From Bacteroidota bacterium (GTDB lineage: Bacteria; Bacteroidota; Bacteroidia; Chitinophagales; Chitinophagaceae), in the NCBI GenBank assembly GCA_016868855.1, contig VGFP01000001.1, positions 248,001 through 312,000 of the forward strand: DNA of 64,000 nucleotides, given 5' to 3'. Below are positions 21,544 through 26,867 of the stretch, piece by piece. Every line of letters starts with the position of its first letter. Positions within the stretch are counted from its first letter, which is position 1. The notes below the pieces were generated by a model. It was not told where the DNA came from. It saw only the letters and a list, made by a program, of their open reading frames with translations, and did no database searches. A program made the position numbers and the translations under genes.

Positions 21544-22683
21544 CTACAGCAACCCTTTTGTTGAAGGCAATGCATCCTGAAAAGGATCTTTTTTGATAGC
21601 CATGCGTATGGCTTTGGCGAATGCCTTGAAGATCGCTTCTATCTTATGATGCTCATTGTCACCTTTGCAATAAATATTCAAATTGCATTTTGCTCCATCT
21701 GAGAATGATTTGAAGAAATGGAAAAACATCTCGGTAGGCATTTCACCAATTTTTTCCCGTTTGAAATCTGCTTCCCAAACCAACCAATTTCTTCCACCAA
21801 AATCAATCAATACCTTGGCTTCAGCATCATCCATTGGCAATGCGAATCCATAGCGTTCCATTCCGCGCTTGTCTGCCAATCCCTTTGCAAATGCTTCTCC
21901 CAAAGCAATTCCCGTATCCTCAATGGTATGATGCTCATCAATGTGCAGGTCACCCTCCACTTGTATATCCAGGTCAATTTTCCCATGTCGTGAAATCTGA
22001 TCCAACATGTGATCAAAGAATCCGAGTCCGGTGTTGATATTGAACTTACCCGCTCCATCAAAATTTGCCTTTACACGAATTTTTGTCTCATTGGTATTTC
22101 TCGTATGTTCAACCATACGCAAACCATTTTTCAGAAAAGCGTATATGTCGCGCCAGCTATCTGTCTTCAATACAACAGTATTTTGCAGATCGCTTGACAA
22201 AGCTGAGATATCAAGTTGTCCTGCGCCGTCTGGGTTGTTGATAAAAATACATTTGGTACCTAAATTCCTGGCAAGCTCAATATCAGTTTTCCTGTCTCCA
22301 ATTACATATGAGCCAGCCAAATCGTAAGCTTCATTTCCAATGTATTTCCCCAACATGCCTGTTCCGGGTTTTCTGGAAAGTGAATTTTCATGGGGCATGC
22401 TGGGATCGATGAAAATTTCATCGAAAACAATGCCCTCACCTGCCAATGTTTGTAGAATATGCTGTTGAATAGGCTCAAAGTGTTCTGCAGGGAAAGATGA
22501 CGTACCCAATCCATCCTGATTGGAAACCATCGCCAATTCAAAATCGAATTCATTGGCAATGCGAGACAGAAATTGAAAAACATATGGATAAAAAACAAGT
22601 TTTTCAAAATGATCAATCTGAAAAGTGGGAGGCGCTTCTTTGATAAGAGTGCCATCACGGTCAATGAACAATACTTTTTTCAT
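21544..22683 (-). CDS. hisB: bifunctional histidinol-phosphatase / imidazoleglycerol-phosphate dehydratase
   Basis: 379 aa fusion. The N-terminal HAD phosphatase domain (about 1-165) carries FIDRDGTL and GDRKTDIELARNLG. The C-terminal IGP dehydratase (about 185-379) carries the metal-binding motifs FDHMLDQISRHG, DEHHTIEDTG and a final EHHKIEAIFKAFAKAIR. It catalyses the seventh and ninth steps of histidine biosynthesis. Its start overlaps the hisC stop by 4 bases. It is the last gene of hisGDCB; the remaining his genes are not in the window. Confidence 0.97.
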   Translation of the reverse strand: MKKVLFIDRDGTLIKEAPPTFQIDHFEKLVFYPYVFQFLSRIANEFDFELAMVSNQDGLGTSSFPAEHFEPIQQHILQTLAGEGIVFDEIFIDPSMPHENSLSRKPGTGMLGKYIGNEAYDLAGSYVIGDRKTDIELARNLGTKCIFINNPDGAGQLDISALSSDLQNTVVLKTDSWRDIYAFLKNGLRMVEHTRNTNETKIRVKANFDGAGKFNINTGLGFFDHMLDQISRHGKIDLDIQVEGDLHIDEHHTIEDTGIALGEAFAKGLADKRGMERYGFALPMDDAEAKVLIDFGGRNWLVWEADFKREKIGEMPTEMFFHFFKSFSDGAKCNLNIYCKGDNEHHKIEAIFKAFAKAIRMAIKKDPFQDALPSTKGLL

Positions 22684-23732
22684 GATTGCTTGAATGATTT
22701 TAATGTTTCGATCAATGCTTTATTTTCCTTCTCTGTTCCAACGGTTATCCGCAGACAGTCCTCACAGCGTTGAACATTGCTTCGGTCACGGACTACAATT
22801 TCACGGTCCAGCAAATATTCATATAATGCTTTTGCATCTTGAAATTTTACCAAAAGAAAATTGGCGTCAGACGGATAGATCTTTTCAACAGTTTCAATAT
22901 TCATCAAGTCCTTTTCCAATGCAGCACGCATATCAACAATAGCTTTGATCATATCATTCACCTGCCCTATTTCATCCAATGCCTTGAGCGCCAACTCCTG
23001 AACAGGTTCACTGATATTGTAAGGAGGTTTTACTTTGTTCATGTATTGAATGATCTCGCTCGAAGCAAAAGCCATTCCCATTCTCAATCCTGCGAGTCCC
23101 CATGCCTTGCTGAGTGTCTGCATCACAACCAGATTGGGGTAATCATTCAAATCAGCAACAAATGATTTTTGTCTGGAAAAATTGATATACGCTTCGTCAA
23201 TCACAACGAGTCCGTCGAAATTATTCAGGATCATTTCAATCGACTGGCGATCCATGCTATTCCCAGTTGGATTATTGGGTGAGCATATCCAAATGATCTT
23301 GGTATTGGGCTGAATGGACTGTTCCAATTGTTCAAGATCGATTTGAAAAGATGATGTCAACGGGACTTTCCTGATTGTTACATTGTTGATGTTAGCACTC
23401 ACTTCATACATGCCATATGTTGGAGGCATGATGATGACTTCATCTACTTTAGGTTCACAAAAACACCTTAGTAAAATATCAATGGGCTCATCGCTTCCAT
23501 TCCCAAGAAAAATCTGTTCAATAGGAACCTTCTTTATGAAAGATATCTTCTCCTTTACTTTTTTCTGTAAGGGGTCTGGATACCGATTGTACCATTTTGT
23601 CAATGGCGATCCAAGAGAATTTTCATTCGCATCCAGAAAAACAGAAGCCTTCCCTGAAAATTCATCTCTGGCAGATGAGTAGGGACTTAATTTTTTGATA
23701 TTGCCTCGAACAAGAGATGCTAGATTGAACAT
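22680..23732 (-). CDS. hisC: histidinol-phosphate aminotransferase
   Basis: 350 aa, fold-type I PLP enzyme. ICSPNNPTGNSM, VIDEAYINFS and the PLP-lysine segment TLSKAWGLAGLRMG are all present and in order. It moves an amino group from glutamate to imidazole-acetol phosphate. It lies 8 bases behind hisD and overlaps hisB by 4 bases. It shares the hisG attenuator. Confidence 0.96.
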   Translation of the reverse strand: MFNLASLVRGNIKKLSPYSSARDEFSGKASVFLDANENSLGSPLTKWYNRYPDPLQKKVKEKISFIKKVPIEQIFLGNGSDEPIDILLRCFCEPKVDEVIIMPPTYGMYEVSANINNVTIRKVPLTSSFQIDLEQLEQSIQPNTKIIWICSPNNPTGNSMDRQSIEMILNNFDGLVVIDEAYINFSRQKSFVADLNDYPNLVVMQTLSKAWGLAGLRMGMAFASSEIIQYMNKVKPPYNISEPVQELALKALDEIGQVNDMIKAIVDMRAALEKDLMNIETVEKIYPSDANFLLVKFQDAKALYEYLLDREIVVRDRSNVQRCEDCLRITVGTEKENKALIETLKSFKQS

Positions 23733-23740
23733 AAATAGAA

Positions 23741-25015
23741 TTAGTTTAATCTTACTTTTACAGCGTTGGCATGTGCCTGCAATCCTTCAGCCTCAGCCAT
23801 TACTATAATTGTATTGCCCAGTTTAGCAATTCCATTTTTGCTAATCTGCTGATAAGTAATCTTCTTTACAAAACTGTCCACACTGACCCCGCTATAGGTT
23901 CTGGCAAATCCATTCGTTGGCAATGTGTGGTTGGTGCCACTTGCATAATCACCTGCACTTTCTGGCGTATAATTTCCTATAAATACAGAACCTGCATGGA
24001 TGATACCGTCAACATACTTTTGAGGCTCATCAGAAGCGATGATCAAATGTTCTGCGGCGTATTGGTTTACAAAAGCAACCATTGAATCTGTGTCGCTCAG
24101 TAAAATCGCCTTGCTGTTTTCCAATGCCTTTGAAGCAATTGGTCCCCTATCCAATGTTGCCACCTGCCTATTCAATTCATTCATTGTATCCTGAATGACT
24201 TTCATCTGATTGCTAACCAGCATCACCTGAGAGTCAGGTCCATGTTCCGCCTGTGCCAACAAATCTGCTGCCACATAGGAGGGAATCGAAGTTTCATCTG
24301 CGATGATGCAAACTTCACTCGGACCAGCTGGCATATCAATCGCCAAACCTTCCAGCTGAACCAGCTGTTTTGCTGCTGTAACATATTGGTTACCCGGACC
24401 GAAAATCTTATCCACTTTTTGAATGGATGCAGTTCCAAATGCCATCGCAGCAATTGCTTGTGCACCACCAGCTTTGTAAATTTCTTTGATGCCAACAAGA
24501 CTCGCAGCGTATAAAATAGCAGGATGTATTTGCCCATTGGCAGATGCAGGAGTTGACATAACTATTTGATTGCATCCAGCAATTTGTGCAGGAACTCCCA
24601 ACATCAATACAGTTGAAAACAAGGGAGCAGATCCGCCAGGAATGTAAAATCCAACCCGTTGAATGGGCACTGATTTTCTCCAACAATAAACACCTTCGCT
24701 GGTTTCGATTTTTTTGGTCACCTCAATTTGTTGGGTATGGAATTTTGTAATGTTTTGATGTGCACGCAAAATGGCCTGCTGAAGTTCAACCGGAATCTTG
24801 CGTTCAGCATCTTTTATTTCTTTTTCTGTAATCAATAATTTTCGCACTGTAATTCCGTCAAACTTCTTGGTCAGAGATTTTACAGCTGTATCACCTTTTG
24901 ATTTAACCTGTTGCAAAATTTTGGATACAGTTTTATGCAAGGGAACCTGATCGATGACAGGCCTCTGCACAAGTGAATTCCAATCAGCCATTGAAGGCTC
25001 TTGATAAATTTTCAT
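23741..25015 (-). CDS. hisD: histidinol dehydrogenase
   Basis: 424 aa, normal length. Family motifs: PGGSAPLFSTVLMLGVPA, the FGPGNQYVTAAK loop, DMPAGPSEV, the zinc-site segment AEHGPDSQ and YASGTNHTLPT near the end. It performs the two NAD-dependent oxidations from histidinol to histidine. The gene is 3 bases behind hisG. Confidence 0.97.
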   Translation of the reverse strand: MKIYQEPSMADWNSLVQRPVIDQVPLHKTVSKILQQVKSKGDTAVKSLTKKFDGITVRKLLITEKEIKDAERKIPVELQQAILRAHQNITKFHTQQIEVTKKIETSEGVYCWRKSVPIQRVGFYIPGGSAPLFSTVLMLGVPAQIAGCNQIVMSTPASANGQIHPAILYAASLVGIKEIYKAGGAQAIAAMAFGTASIQKVDKIFGPGNQYVTAAKQLVQLEGLAIDMPAGPSEVCIIADETSIPSYVAADLLAQAEHGPDSQVMLVSNQMKVIQDTMNELNRQVATLDRGPIASKALENSKAILLSDTDSMVAFVNQYAAEHLIIASDEPQKYVDGIIHAGSVFIGNYTPESAGDYASGTNHTLPTNGFARTYSGVSVDSFVKKITYQQISKNGIAKLGNTIIVMAEAEGLQAHANAVKVRLN

Positions 25016-25018
25016 AAA

Positions 25019-25885
25019 CTATAATATCATTTTTTCAATAGGCACTACCAAAATTCCCTCAGCACCTGCTTTTTTCAATTGCTCGATCTTCTCCCAAAAT
25101 TCATCCTCGCTCAACACGCTGTGAACGCTGCTCCATCCCGACTCAGCCAGTGGTAAAACAGATGGGCTTTTCATGCCAGGTAGCAATGAGATGATCTCTG
25201 AAAGCTTTTCATTGGGCGCATTCATAAGCACATACTTGTTCTTCTTGGCCTTTTTTACAGCCCTGATTCTGAATAGTAGTTTTTCTAAAATTGTTTGTTG
25301 GTGTTTGTTCAACTGATTATTGGAAATCAAAACAGCCTGAGATTCTAGCAAAACTTCCGCTTCTTTCAATCCATTCATAAACAATGTACCTCCGCTGCTC
25401 ACCAAATCGACAACTGCATCCGCTAAACCGATGCCGGGTGCTATTTCAACAGAACCACTGATTTCATGCACAGTAGCATTGATATTGTTTTTTTTCAGGT
25501 AACCAGCAACAATGACTGGATAGCTGGTTGCAATGCGCTTGCCCTCGAGCGTAGAAGCCCCTTCGTAAGCGACTGTTTTTGGTAGGGCGATGGAAAGTCG
25601 GCATTTTCCGAAGCCCAATGCCTCGATGGTCTGGACATTCCGATTTTTTTCAGCCAGCACATTTTGGCCAACAATGCCAAGATCTGCCACACCATCTTCC
25701 ACATACTCAGGGATGTCATCATCCCTCAGAAAAAAAACTTCTATTGGAAAATTGTCAGAAACAGTTCTGAGCCGGTCTTTTACATTGCGCAGTTCAATTC
25801 CGCATTCTTTGAGCAAAGCAATTGAATCCTCAGAGAGTCTCCCTGACTTTTGAATGGCTATTTTCAGTATCGGTTCGTTGTGCAT
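25019..25885 (-). CDS. hisG: ATP phosphoribosyltransferase, long form
   Basis: 288 aa. The N-terminal catalytic domain has IQKSGRLSEDS and the PRPP-type region LVSSGGTLFMNGL. The extra C-terminal ~80 residues (NAPNEKLSEIISLLPGMKSPSVLPLA) form the ACT-like regulatory domain of the long HisG form, which is feedback-inhibited by histidine and needs no HisZ. It catalyses the first step of the pathway. Its transcription is preceded by a leader peptide and terminator (attenuator) at 25900-25989. Confidence 0.97.
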   Translation of the reverse strand: MHNEPILKIAIQKSGRLSEDSIALLKECGIELRNVKDRLRTVSDNFPIEVFFLRDDDIPEYVEDGVADLGIVGQNVLAEKNRNVQTIEALGFGKCRLSIALPKTVAYEGASTLEGKRIATSYPVIVAGYLKKNNINATVHEISGSVEIAPGIGLADAVVDLVSSGGTLFMNGLKEAEVLLESQAVLISNNQLNKHQQTILEKLLFRIRAVKKAKKNKYVLMNAPNEKLSEIISLLPGMKSPSVLPLAESGWSSVHSVLSEDEFWEKIEQLKKAGAEGILVVPIEKMIL

Positions 25886-25899
25886 TGTATTCTTTTTTA

Positions 25900-25929
25900 A
25901 AATAAAAAAGGCTTACCAAAGGCAAGCCT
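25900..25929 (-). terminator. his attenuator terminator
   Basis: Minus strand AGGCTTGCC-TTT-GGTAAGCCT (25929-25909) followed by TTTTTATTTT, just before the hisG start. Its 5' arm and loop (25916-25928) can instead pair with 25951-25964 in the leader: CCAAAGGGTGAGCC with GGCTTGCCTTTGG. That is an antiterminator. Confidence 0.9.
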
Positions 25930-25953
25930 GTATAATGTACATACAATAATGGC

Positions 25954-25989
25954 TCACCCTTTGGGAAAGAAATGATGATGATGATGCAT
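25954..25989 (-). CDS. hisL: his operon leader peptide (MHHHHHFFPKG)
   Basis: The eleven codons ATG-CAT x5-TTC-TTT-CCC-AAA-GGG-TGA are placed between the his promoter and the attenuator terminator. Five consecutive His codons sense charged tRNA-His. A ribosome that reaches the stop covers 25951-25964, so the terminator can fold. One that stalls on the His codons leaves that strand free to form the antiterminator. It uses the same principle as the enterobacterial hisL, with a shorter peptide and only two competing structures visible. Confidence 0.9.
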   Translation of the reverse strand: MHHHHHFFPKG

Positions 25990-26011
25990 GTTTAATATTG
26001 GTGACATGTGT

Positions 26012-26019
26012 CAAAGGTA
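26012..26019 (-). promoter_or_regulatory. -7 element TACCTTTG of the his operon
   Basis: Exact TAnnTTTG; a TTTTG -33 element lies at 26040-26044 with a 20-base spacer. The leader ATG is 23 bases downstream of the element's end. Confidence 0.7.
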
Positions 26020-26054
26020 AGATTCAAAAACATAATAGCCAAAACAGAAAATGA

Positions 26055-26062
26055 TTACTTTC
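26055..26062 (+). promoter_or_regulatory. -7-like element TACTTTCG before the GH16 gene
   Basis: One mismatch to TAnnTTTG and only 4 bases between it and the ATG at 26067. If it is used, the mRNA would have almost no leader. Confidence 0.3.
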
Positions 26063-26066
26063 GGGC

Positions 26067-26867
26067 ATGAAAAAACCGATTGCTGTCAATCTACTCCATG
26101 CACTTGTTTGCATTGTTCTTTTTGCATCACCAACTGCCATACAAGCCCAATGGAAATTGGTATGGAGCGATGAATTCAACAAAGAGGGACTCCCAGACCC
26201 CAGCAAGTGGGGTTATGATGTAGGTGGACATGGATGGGGCAACAACGAGCTCCAGTTTTATACCCAATCCAGAAAAGAAAATGCCAGGATTGAAAACGGA
26301 AAACTCATCATAGAGGCACATCGAGAACCAATGGAAGGAAAAGAGTATACCTCAGCCCGACTTGTTACGCGTGATATTGCCACATGGTCAAGCGGAAAAA
26401 TTGAAGTCAGTGCAAAACTGCCATCTGGTCTTGGTACTTGGCCAGCGATTTGGATGCTGGCGAATACCCATCCCCTCAAATGGCCGGATGATGGTGAAAT
26501 AGACATCATGGAACATGTTGGATACGACCAAGGCACTGTACACGCATCGGTCCATACCAAAAAGTACAATCATATTATAGGAACACAAAAAACCGACAAG
26601 ATATCTGTAATTGATTGCTCTGAAACTTTTCATCGCTATCAAGTAGAGTGGAACAATGACAGCATCAGCATTGGAATAGACGACAACTATTATTATTCTT
26701 TCAAAAATGAGAAAACCGGATACGATGCTTGGCCATTGTCTAATAAGTTTTATCTGCTGCTGAATCTAGCTGTGGGCGGAAACTGGGGTGGACAAAAAGG
26801 AGTTGCCAAAGATGTTTGGCCGAGGAGAATGGAAGTTGATTATGTACGTGTTTATCAAAAGAAATAA
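26067..26867 (+). CDS. glycoside hydrolase family 16 beta-glucanase, exported
   Basis: 266 aa. The signal peptide (residues 1-~27, ending IQAQ) precedes a single GH16 jelly-roll domain with WSDEFN at its start and the catalytic signature DGEIDIMEHVG (about 143-153, nucleophile and acid/base Glu). LNLAVGGNWGG and a final VDYVRVYQKK are the usual family features. It probably cleaves beta-1,3- or mixed-linkage glucan (laminarin-like) outside the cytoplasm; subfamily 3 is likely. It is divergent from the his operon and 12 bases before the M1 peptidase. Confidence 0.92.
   Translation: MKKPIAVNLLHALVCIVLFASPTAIQAQWKLVWSDEFNKEGLPDPSKWGYDVGGHGWGNNELQFYTQSRKENARIENGKLIIEAHREPMEGKEYTSARLVTRDIATWSSGKIEVSAKLPSGLGTWPAIWMLANTHPLKWPDDGEIDIMEHVGYDQGTVHASVHTKKYNHIIGTQKTDKISVIDCSETFHRYQVEWNNDSISIGIDDNYYYSFKNEKTGYDAWPLSNKFYLLLNLAVGGNWGGQKGVAKDVWPRRMEVDYVRVYQKK

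Follow-up and report, generated by a model that had tools for sequence, protein, structure and literature searches.

The his attenuator of enterobacteria combines a leader peptide rich in His codons with mutually exclusive protector, antiterminator, and terminator hairpins, the terminator being placed before hisG; this leader, hisL, is represented in Rfam by His_leader (RF00514). The element that we describe here, upstream of a hisGDCB operon in a member of the Bacteroidota, has the same kind of His leader and three exclusive hairpins. It differs from the enterobacterial one in having a 17-aa leader with five His codons, a leader RNA of ~100 nt, a stop codon inside the antiterminator strand, and a start that is predicted to be leaderless, which would be its distinctive trait within a known type of attenuator. 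A 2010 survey of attenuation in bacteria by Lopatovskaya et al. may already include his attenuators of Bacteroidetes.

Leaderless attenuators have been described in other phyla. The trpL (rnTrpL) leader of Sinorhizobium meliloti is likewise leaderless at the leader ATG, with regulatory codons and a terminator/antiterminator pair, but it senses Trp and has been studied experimentally, whereas the hisGDCB element is predicted from sequence (PMC7298713). The ilvBNC operon of the actinobacterium Corynebacterium glutamicum likewise has a leaderless peptide with an anti-antiterminator, antiterminator, and terminator, although its regulatory codons are for branched-chain amino acids and its terminator and antiterminator have been mutationally tested (PMC11857589). 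Leaderless leader peptides also occur among mycobacterial Cys ORFs (PMC9031893). Runs of three to five consecutive His codons before the his operon were likewise predicted by comparison in the Bacillus cereus group and other Firmicutes, which is again another phylum, and the excerpt of that paper mentions no leaderless start (PMC9413887).

Within the phylum of our genome, there are clues for leader-peptide attenuation before amino acid operons of Flavobacterium psychrophilum, including structured elements before hisG and pheA (the same genes as here) that are conserved in other Flavobacteriaceae and have no Rfam matches (PMC9723704). The hisG element there is likely to be the same as ours; the text describing it gives neither leader sequences nor structures. 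A search of titles and abstract openings for a Bacteroidetes or Bacteroidota his attenuator, with most subscription journals outside its coverage, returned none beyond that paper (PMC9723704).

The histidine leader before hisGDCB

The window, i.e., the whole 64,000-nt stretch of DNA analyzed (contig VGFP01000001.1, assembly GCA_016868855.1), carries the following features of the operon, promoter, and leader ORF. All coordinates are window positions.

26040 to 26044, minus strand: −33 promoter element TTTTG, read directly, 20 nt ahead of the −7 box
26012 to 26019, minus strand: −7 promoter element TACCTTTG (TAnnTTTG), read directly, with the leader ATG 4 nt on
26007, minus strand: predicted transcription start, the A of the leader ATG, from the box spacing in Flavobacterium
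25954 to 26007, minus strand: leader ORF hisL, MSPILNMHHHHHFFPKG, stop TGA, with the start codon kept in the nearest relatives
25972 to 25986, minus strand: five His regulatory codons (CAT x5), read directly
25019 to 25885, minus strand: hisG, first gene of the operon (PF01634 and PF08029)
23741 to 25015, minus strand: hisD (PF00815, Histidinol_dh)
22680 to 23732, minus strand: hisC, an aminotransferase of class I/II (PF00155), named from its operon position
21544 to 22683, minus strand: bifunctional hisB, HAD phosphatase and IGPD (PF00475, PF13242)

Along the minus strand, TTTTG is followed by 20 nt, TACCTTTG, ACAC, and the ATG at 26007–26005, so that the promoter reported before hisG in the preliminary description is indeed present (26044–26012). 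The leader stop codon occupies 25956–25954 and is followed by a 24-nt spacer and then the terminator hairpin; 68 nt, including the terminator and its U-run, separate the stop from the hisG ATG. A divergent plus-strand ORF (start 26067) flanks the element on the side opposite hisG (start 25885). For the hisH-hisA-hisF-hisIE genes of the same genome, no own-strand His leader was found.

The leader had been read as MHHHHHFFPKG, an 11-aa peptide that begins at Met 25989. The His codon ORF is there and this Met is in frame, but the length does not hold, and the leader is most likely 17 aa with its start at 26007, 18 nt upstream of that Met. This is because the ATG 4 nt past the −7 box is retained in the nearest relatives (L003, L004, L005, and L032), whereas Met 25989 (Met7 of the 17-aa frame) is K or S in the same four loci.

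Predicted competing RNA structures

The RNA segments of the element are the following.

25985 to 25991, minus strand: strand 1 of the protector hairpin, ACATGCA (Met7 and part of the first His codon), pairing with 25945–25939 in the ribosome-free fold
25951 to 25964, minus strand: strand 2, the 5' strand of the antiterminator (last leader codons and stop), 13 pairs with 25928–25916
25939 to 25945, minus strand: strand 2b, TGTATGT, partner of strand 1, within the apical hairpin of the antiterminator (fold and permutation)
25930 to 25944, minus strand: apical hairpin of the antiterminator, GTATGTACATTATAC (folds of 25964–25896 and 25972–25913)
25916 to 25928, minus strand: strand 3, 5' arm and loop of the terminator, common to the antiterminator (fold and comparison)
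25909 to 25929, minus strand: intrinsic terminator hairpin, AGGCTTGCC-TTT-GGTAAGCCT, 9 bp with a TTT loop, −13.3 kcal/mol
25899 to 25908, minus strand: U-rich tail of the terminator, read directly

The 9-bp terminator with its T-run was identified correctly from the start (hairpin 25929–25909, tail 25908–25899) and folds alone at −13.3 kcal/mol. The same is true of the complementarity between 25951–25964 and 25916–25928, estimated at about 13 pairs, for which the fold gives exactly 13. The antiterminator (25972–25913) folds at −20.6 kcal/mol, and none of 200 shuffled sequences was as stable. The whole-leader fold began at 26004, three nucleotides inside the predicted transcript.

The statement that only two structures compete has to be withdrawn. 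Folding points to three (protector, antiterminator, and terminator), the third being a covarying protector hairpin in which strand 1 pairs with strand 2b (1:2b). Pairings 1:2b and 2:3 cross and are therefore mutually exclusive, which is classical protector logic. The protector is modest in the window itself (−7.7 kcal/mol). Its inclusion is supported by comparison, as the energies of strand 1 with its own 2b partner beat 5000 of 5000 permutations across 64 loci.

Conservation among hisG upstream regions

We compared 111 hisG loci (30 from the genome itself and related genomes, 80 from named public contigs, and the locus of the window again), from which nine identical upstream sequences were dropped, leaving 102 unique loci with that of the window included. 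It should be noted that these loci share ancestry and cannot be counted as independent events. Among named public contigs, those whose HisG is most similar mainly carry the label Chitinophagaceae or Bacteroidota.

A His-rich leader ORF occurs in 100 of the 102 upstream regions (in L017 it starts with GTG); none was found in the other two, L022 and L049. An intrinsic terminator was detected in 95, and in 91 of these the leader end pairs over at least 6 bp with the 5' arm of the terminator. Absence of the ORF or of the alternative pairing from close relatives had been named as a reason to doubt the element, and most of the loci compared have both. The stop codon lies within this pairing in 72 of the 95 loci, and the antiterminator is more stable than the terminator in 78 of 95. 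In some loci, the stop codon has moved and the complementary strand has been kept: the stop is later in L025, L087, L090, L097, and L105 (GGTARGCC) and earlier in L006 (GGGGAAGCC). These shifts around an unmoved strand argue that the motif owes its conservation to the RNA and not just to its role as a stop.

Sampling was also extended to the class. Among 197 genomes searched (those <85% complete were excluded), 89 had a HisG match and 80 upstream regions were fetched; the nine left out were the genome of the window, one already included, three split or partial, one at a contig edge, and three same-genus repeats. At least three His within seven residues were found in 67 of the 80 (25 of 800 shuffled sequences and 3 of 80 reverse strands), and at least four within seven in 58 of the 80 (none of 800 dinucleotide shuffles or 80 reverse strands). 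By the criteria used, 13 of the 80 lack a His leader. A terminator accompanies 58 of the 67 leaders and was not detected with nine; when present, there are at least six antiterminator pairs in 48 of 58 and fewer in 10. The sequences indicate that a histidine attenuator is common among the hisG-bearing genomes sampled from this class. Thus, the element was rightly placed in a Bacteroidota setting, but it is not an isolated case, given the 67 of 80 class-wide leaders and the precedent in Flavobacterium. These counts indicate that hisG is usually controlled, in the genomes sampled, by attenuation of the classical type that depends on coupling. Such attenuation needs a ribosome close behind RNA polymerase, and the leaders therefore offer a test of transcription–translation coupling in Bacteroidota.

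A few loci deserve separate mention. Leaders in L094, L132, L142, L149, and L175 end in His-rich ...HHSS or HHHSS and have no detected terminator, and may possibly work in a different way, Rho-dependent or translational, in other families of the class. Contigs labeled Pyrinomonadaceae or Acidobacteria (L077, L088, L102, and L110) encode HisG proteins 64%–66% identical to that of the window, together with a His-rich leader, which suggests either that hisG was transferred along with its leader or that the contigs were misbinned. On a contig labeled Comamonas (L081), hisG and its His leader resemble Chitinophagaceae loci, and this contig is probably misbinned.

Covariation and partner permutation

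For alignment and permutation, 68 clusters were reduced to 64 loci by dropping L077, L101, L102, and L110 as too divergent. The terminator (3:4) is the best-supported structure of the element: 98.8% of alignment cells are paired, and seven of nine pairs show two-sided changes, a result reached by 0 of 500 shuffles. The 2:3 helix is 94.7% paired, but in its core eight pairs there is little covariation: between 29 and 65 of 500 shuffles match the observed measures, as these pairs either hardly vary or mostly switch to G-U. The case for 2:3 rests on conservation and on the displaced stop codons described above, whose complementary strand stayed in place. RNAalifold run on alignment A1 returned the terminator alone. 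We think this is because MAFFT did not keep strands 1 and 2b in register, and partner permutation was used for this reason. In this procedure, 3:4, 2:3, and 1:2b each had 0 of 5000 re-pairings as good as the own partner. The control combinations gave 3536 (1:3), 2294 (mid:3), 390 (1:4), and 454 (2:4) of 5000. Strand 1 against region 2 gave 2 of 5000, which we read as spill-over because the segments as cut share 7 nt.

A predicted leaderless start

In F. psychrophilum, the TAnnTTTG box occupies −12 to −5 (PMC9723704), and in Flavobacterium johnsoniae promoters with 4 or 5 nt from box to start, with G at −5, were taken as probable (PMC6847099). Applied to the 4-nt gap of the window, this spacing places +1 on the A of the AUG, the fifth nucleotide after the G, and we therefore predict that the leader mRNA is leaderless. 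The box-to-ATG gap is also 4 nt in other loci, in total 50 of the 102 (window included), among them L038 from Lacibacter cauensis, a relative that can be cultured; it is 7–8 nt in 17, and 16 have no TAnnTTTG box within 40 nt of the leader ATG. The closest ATG to the His codons already has a 4-nt gap in 45 of 102 loci. Only four of the 67 class-wide leaders have this gap (L125, L126, L137, and L138), and the two other genera of the same family sampled class-wide have gaps of 18 (L118) and 7 (L123). By this spacing, the leaderless start is predicted to be concentrated in the group of the window and sporadic elsewhere. None of the 369 ORFs with 200 aa or more in the fetched DNA has gap 4, although this is a weak control, as any box within 40 nt was present in only 11 of 369.

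TAnnTTTG-N4-ATG occurs 48 times in the genome of the window (which is small) and the reversed pattern 24 times. Of the 48 sites, 36 have an ATG that begins an ORF of 113 aa or more, this being the first in-frame ATG in 34 of the 36. From these patterns, the genome seems to use many leaderless starts, a habit that the gap-4 leader would fit. Reported proportions of leaderless or near-leaderless starts in three species of the phylum are those of a minority class: 5.5% in F. psychrophilum (PMC9723704), about 3.7% with a 5' UTR under 10 nt in Bacteroides thetaiotaomicron (PMC7366714), and 13% with up to 10 nt in F. johnsoniae (PMC6847099). Bacteroidota ribosomes generally do without Shine-Dalgarno signals (PMC10783764). 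If the AUG is truly leaderless, it would allow such ribosomes to bind immediately and keep pace with RNA polymerase, and the 4-nt gap provides a way to test whether leaderless initiation gives tighter timing.

Predicted behavior of the proposed switch

Overall, we consider that the element is probably a ribosome-mediated attenuator of hisGDCB transcription, which senses how much charged tRNA-His is available by means of a 17-codon leader predicted to be leaderless, with a probability of about 0.88 based on comparison and folding. To the observed anatomy, conservation, and capacity to form the structures, this model adds a start site, ribosome stalling, and a change in readthrough, all of which we infer. 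Transcription would begin on the AUG of the leader, and a ribosome would load once the 5' end emerges, there being no 5' UTR. With ample histidine, the ribosome would reach the stop codon inside strand 2 and cover that strand, strand 3 would be left free, the 3:4 terminator would form, and RNA polymerase would halt before hisG. With scarce histidine, the ribosome would wait on the CAT codons, covering strand 1 and leaving strand 2 bare; strand 2 would then take strand 3 before strand 4 is made, allowing readthrough into hisG. If no ribosome loads, strand 1 (with the His codons) could pair with 2b, crossing and disfavoring 2:3, and termination is the classical expectation.

Folds of 95 loci in which a ribosome hides RNA up to 16 nt from the P-site agree with much of this. 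With the ribosome mid-run, the nascent 5' arm of the terminator pairs with upstream RNA in 92 of 95 loci; with the ribosome at the first His, this is so in 89, and at the last His in 88. The corresponding counts are 20 of 95 with the ribosome at the stop and 57 of 95 without a ribosome. In minimum-energy folds of the full-length leader, the terminator is still present in 68 of 95 loci with the ribosome mid-run. As the terminator usually wins at full length, the switch would have to rely on the antiterminator forming first, i.e., on timing. For the window, the terminator disappears from the folds with a ribosome stalled at His and is retained with one at the stop codon. Without a ribosome, the nascent fold of the window has the terminator arm captured and the full-length fold terminates; thus, the protector may not suffice by itself, and this is the least certain step. 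The originally proposed logic, antitermination upon stalling at His codons and termination upon reaching the stop, is well supported by the comparison and the masked folds.

Several other readings need to be weighed. The same attenuator might be translated from Met 25989 as an 11-aa peptide, from an mRNA with an 18-nt 5' UTR. That Met is in frame with the leader, and a 5' UTR of around 23 nt is typical of Bacteroides (PMC7366714), but its replacement by K or S in the closest relatives, which keep the ATG 4 nt past the −7 box, makes this unlikely, as does the fact that the ATG nearest the His codons is already at gap 4 in 45 of 102 loci. Alternatively, control might act on translation of hisG, by re-initiation or occlusion, rather than on termination. 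Leader ORFs close to genes have been proposed to raise translation (PMC4833913), and a leaderless mycobacterial Cys ORF acts on translation (PMC9031893). The 68 nt with a terminator and U-run between the leader stop and the hisG ATG, and retention of the terminator in 95 of 102 loci, speak against such control, which we regard as very improbable.

It is harder still to credit that the hairpin is a constitutive intrinsic terminator, or one that trims transcripts, next to a His-rich ORF that arose by chance and senses no histidine. The terminator is, admittedly, the best-supported structure. However, the His runs are kept class-wide far beyond shuffled expectation, the 2:3 and 1:2b pairings of own partners beat 5000 of 5000 permutations, and the neighboring gene is divergent, so that the hairpin ends no upstream gene on the minus strand. 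Equally hard to credit is an incidental ORF beside some other sensor (an RNA-binding protein, a T-box, or a small-molecule riboswitch), even though a terminator/antiterminator pair alone would fit any sensor. A search of 501 nt (25700–26200) against Rfam returned 12 matches at E up to 10, all well short of their gathering scores, and the element matches no Rfam family; no T-box or riboswitch was among the 12, nor was the His_leader model. A leader of ~100 nt leaves little room for an aptamer, and in other operons the leader codons correspond to the pathway (His, Phe/Tyr, Trp, and Lys), as we describe below.

Leaders before other amino acid genes

One gap-4 site of the same genome (L220) starts a leader, MSTRSNWYSFYFYFYFTSRPGALC, that spans L220:1513–1587; the 5' arm of a terminator complements the leader end, and prephenate dehydratase follows. 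In upstream regions of prephenate dehydratase (that of the same genome included), at least seven Phe or Tyr within 10 residues occur in 28 of 30, compared with 0 of 600 shuffles; the upstream DNA of the two without such a leader was 111 and 51 nt long. In these Phe/Tyr leaders (L220 and L240–L269), the gap is 4 in seven, 5 in 15, 6–7 in four, and 34 or none in two, so 22 of 28 begin 4–5 nt past TAnnTTTG.

An RNA model built on the His leaders was applied to 36 genomes; it recovered the hisG sites and, in many genomes, a second site. At 14 of 20 fetched places away from hisG, this second site is a Lys-rich leader before asd, and one asd protein behind such a leader was confirmed by Pfam. The other six of the 20 matches (L340 and L348–L352) have no pathway leader and look like chance terminators. 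Upstream of asd, at least five Lys within 10 residues occur in 19 of 30 regions (6 of 600 shuffles), with 18 of the 19 at gaps 7–10. The Lys leaders (L333–L339, L341–L347, and L353–L382, from same-genus genomes; e.g., MNQNKHIKKNKKQSHREG) are accompanied by a terminator and strand complementarity. In partner permutation, their 2:3 pairing is nearly invariant and received no support (3969 of 5000), and the 1:3 control was itself low (53 of 5000); 1:2b gave 0 of 5000 on 14 sequences, with 16 of 30 skipped by the motif filter. A search of the genome of the window (87% complete) for asd gave no match.

Judged from these sequences, the Lys-rich leader before asd is a candidate lysine leader-peptide attenuator. 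If real, it would be of rare or new specificity and would extend the set of amino acids known to be sensed by attenuation. No lysine leader peptide before asd was found in titles and abstract openings, with most subscription journals outside this coverage; an ORF of Sinorhizobium that contains Thr and Lys codons and precedes a gene of the aspartate pathway has been suggested as a leader (PMC10117765). Upstream regions of ilvD and homoserine dehydrogenase (20 loci each, several short) contained no convincing Ile/Leu/Val or Thr/Ile leader. It is possible, at a little under even odds, that a set of near-leaderless three-hairpin attenuators governs the His, Phe/Tyr, Trp (plus His), and Lys pathways in this Chitinophagaceae clade, with the His and Lys switches maybe being paralogs with changed codon specificity. 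Paralogy is suggested because the His-only model finds the Lys leaders and both use a protector helix of the CATAC/GTATG type.

Leaders with Trp runs (WWWHNNS, WWWHTHS, WWWHSNS, or GWWHSNS) precede trpE in four of 20 loci; by the criterion used, the remaining 16 have no clear Trp-run leader. In the genome of the window, a one-Trp leader was recognized by eye before trpE, 5 nt after a CAAATTTG box. Because a His codon directly follows the Trp codons in the Trp-run leaders, the trp-his cluster may sense both amino acids. In 12 genomes, hisA/hisF lie on the same contig and strand as trpE, about 7–8 kb after it (the genome of the window, G000:C1 376838–385248, L308 and L331; and G001, G002, G004, G007, G008, G011, G013, G016, G017, G020, and G022). 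In the genome of the window, hisH follows a trpA-like ORF, as judged by eye.
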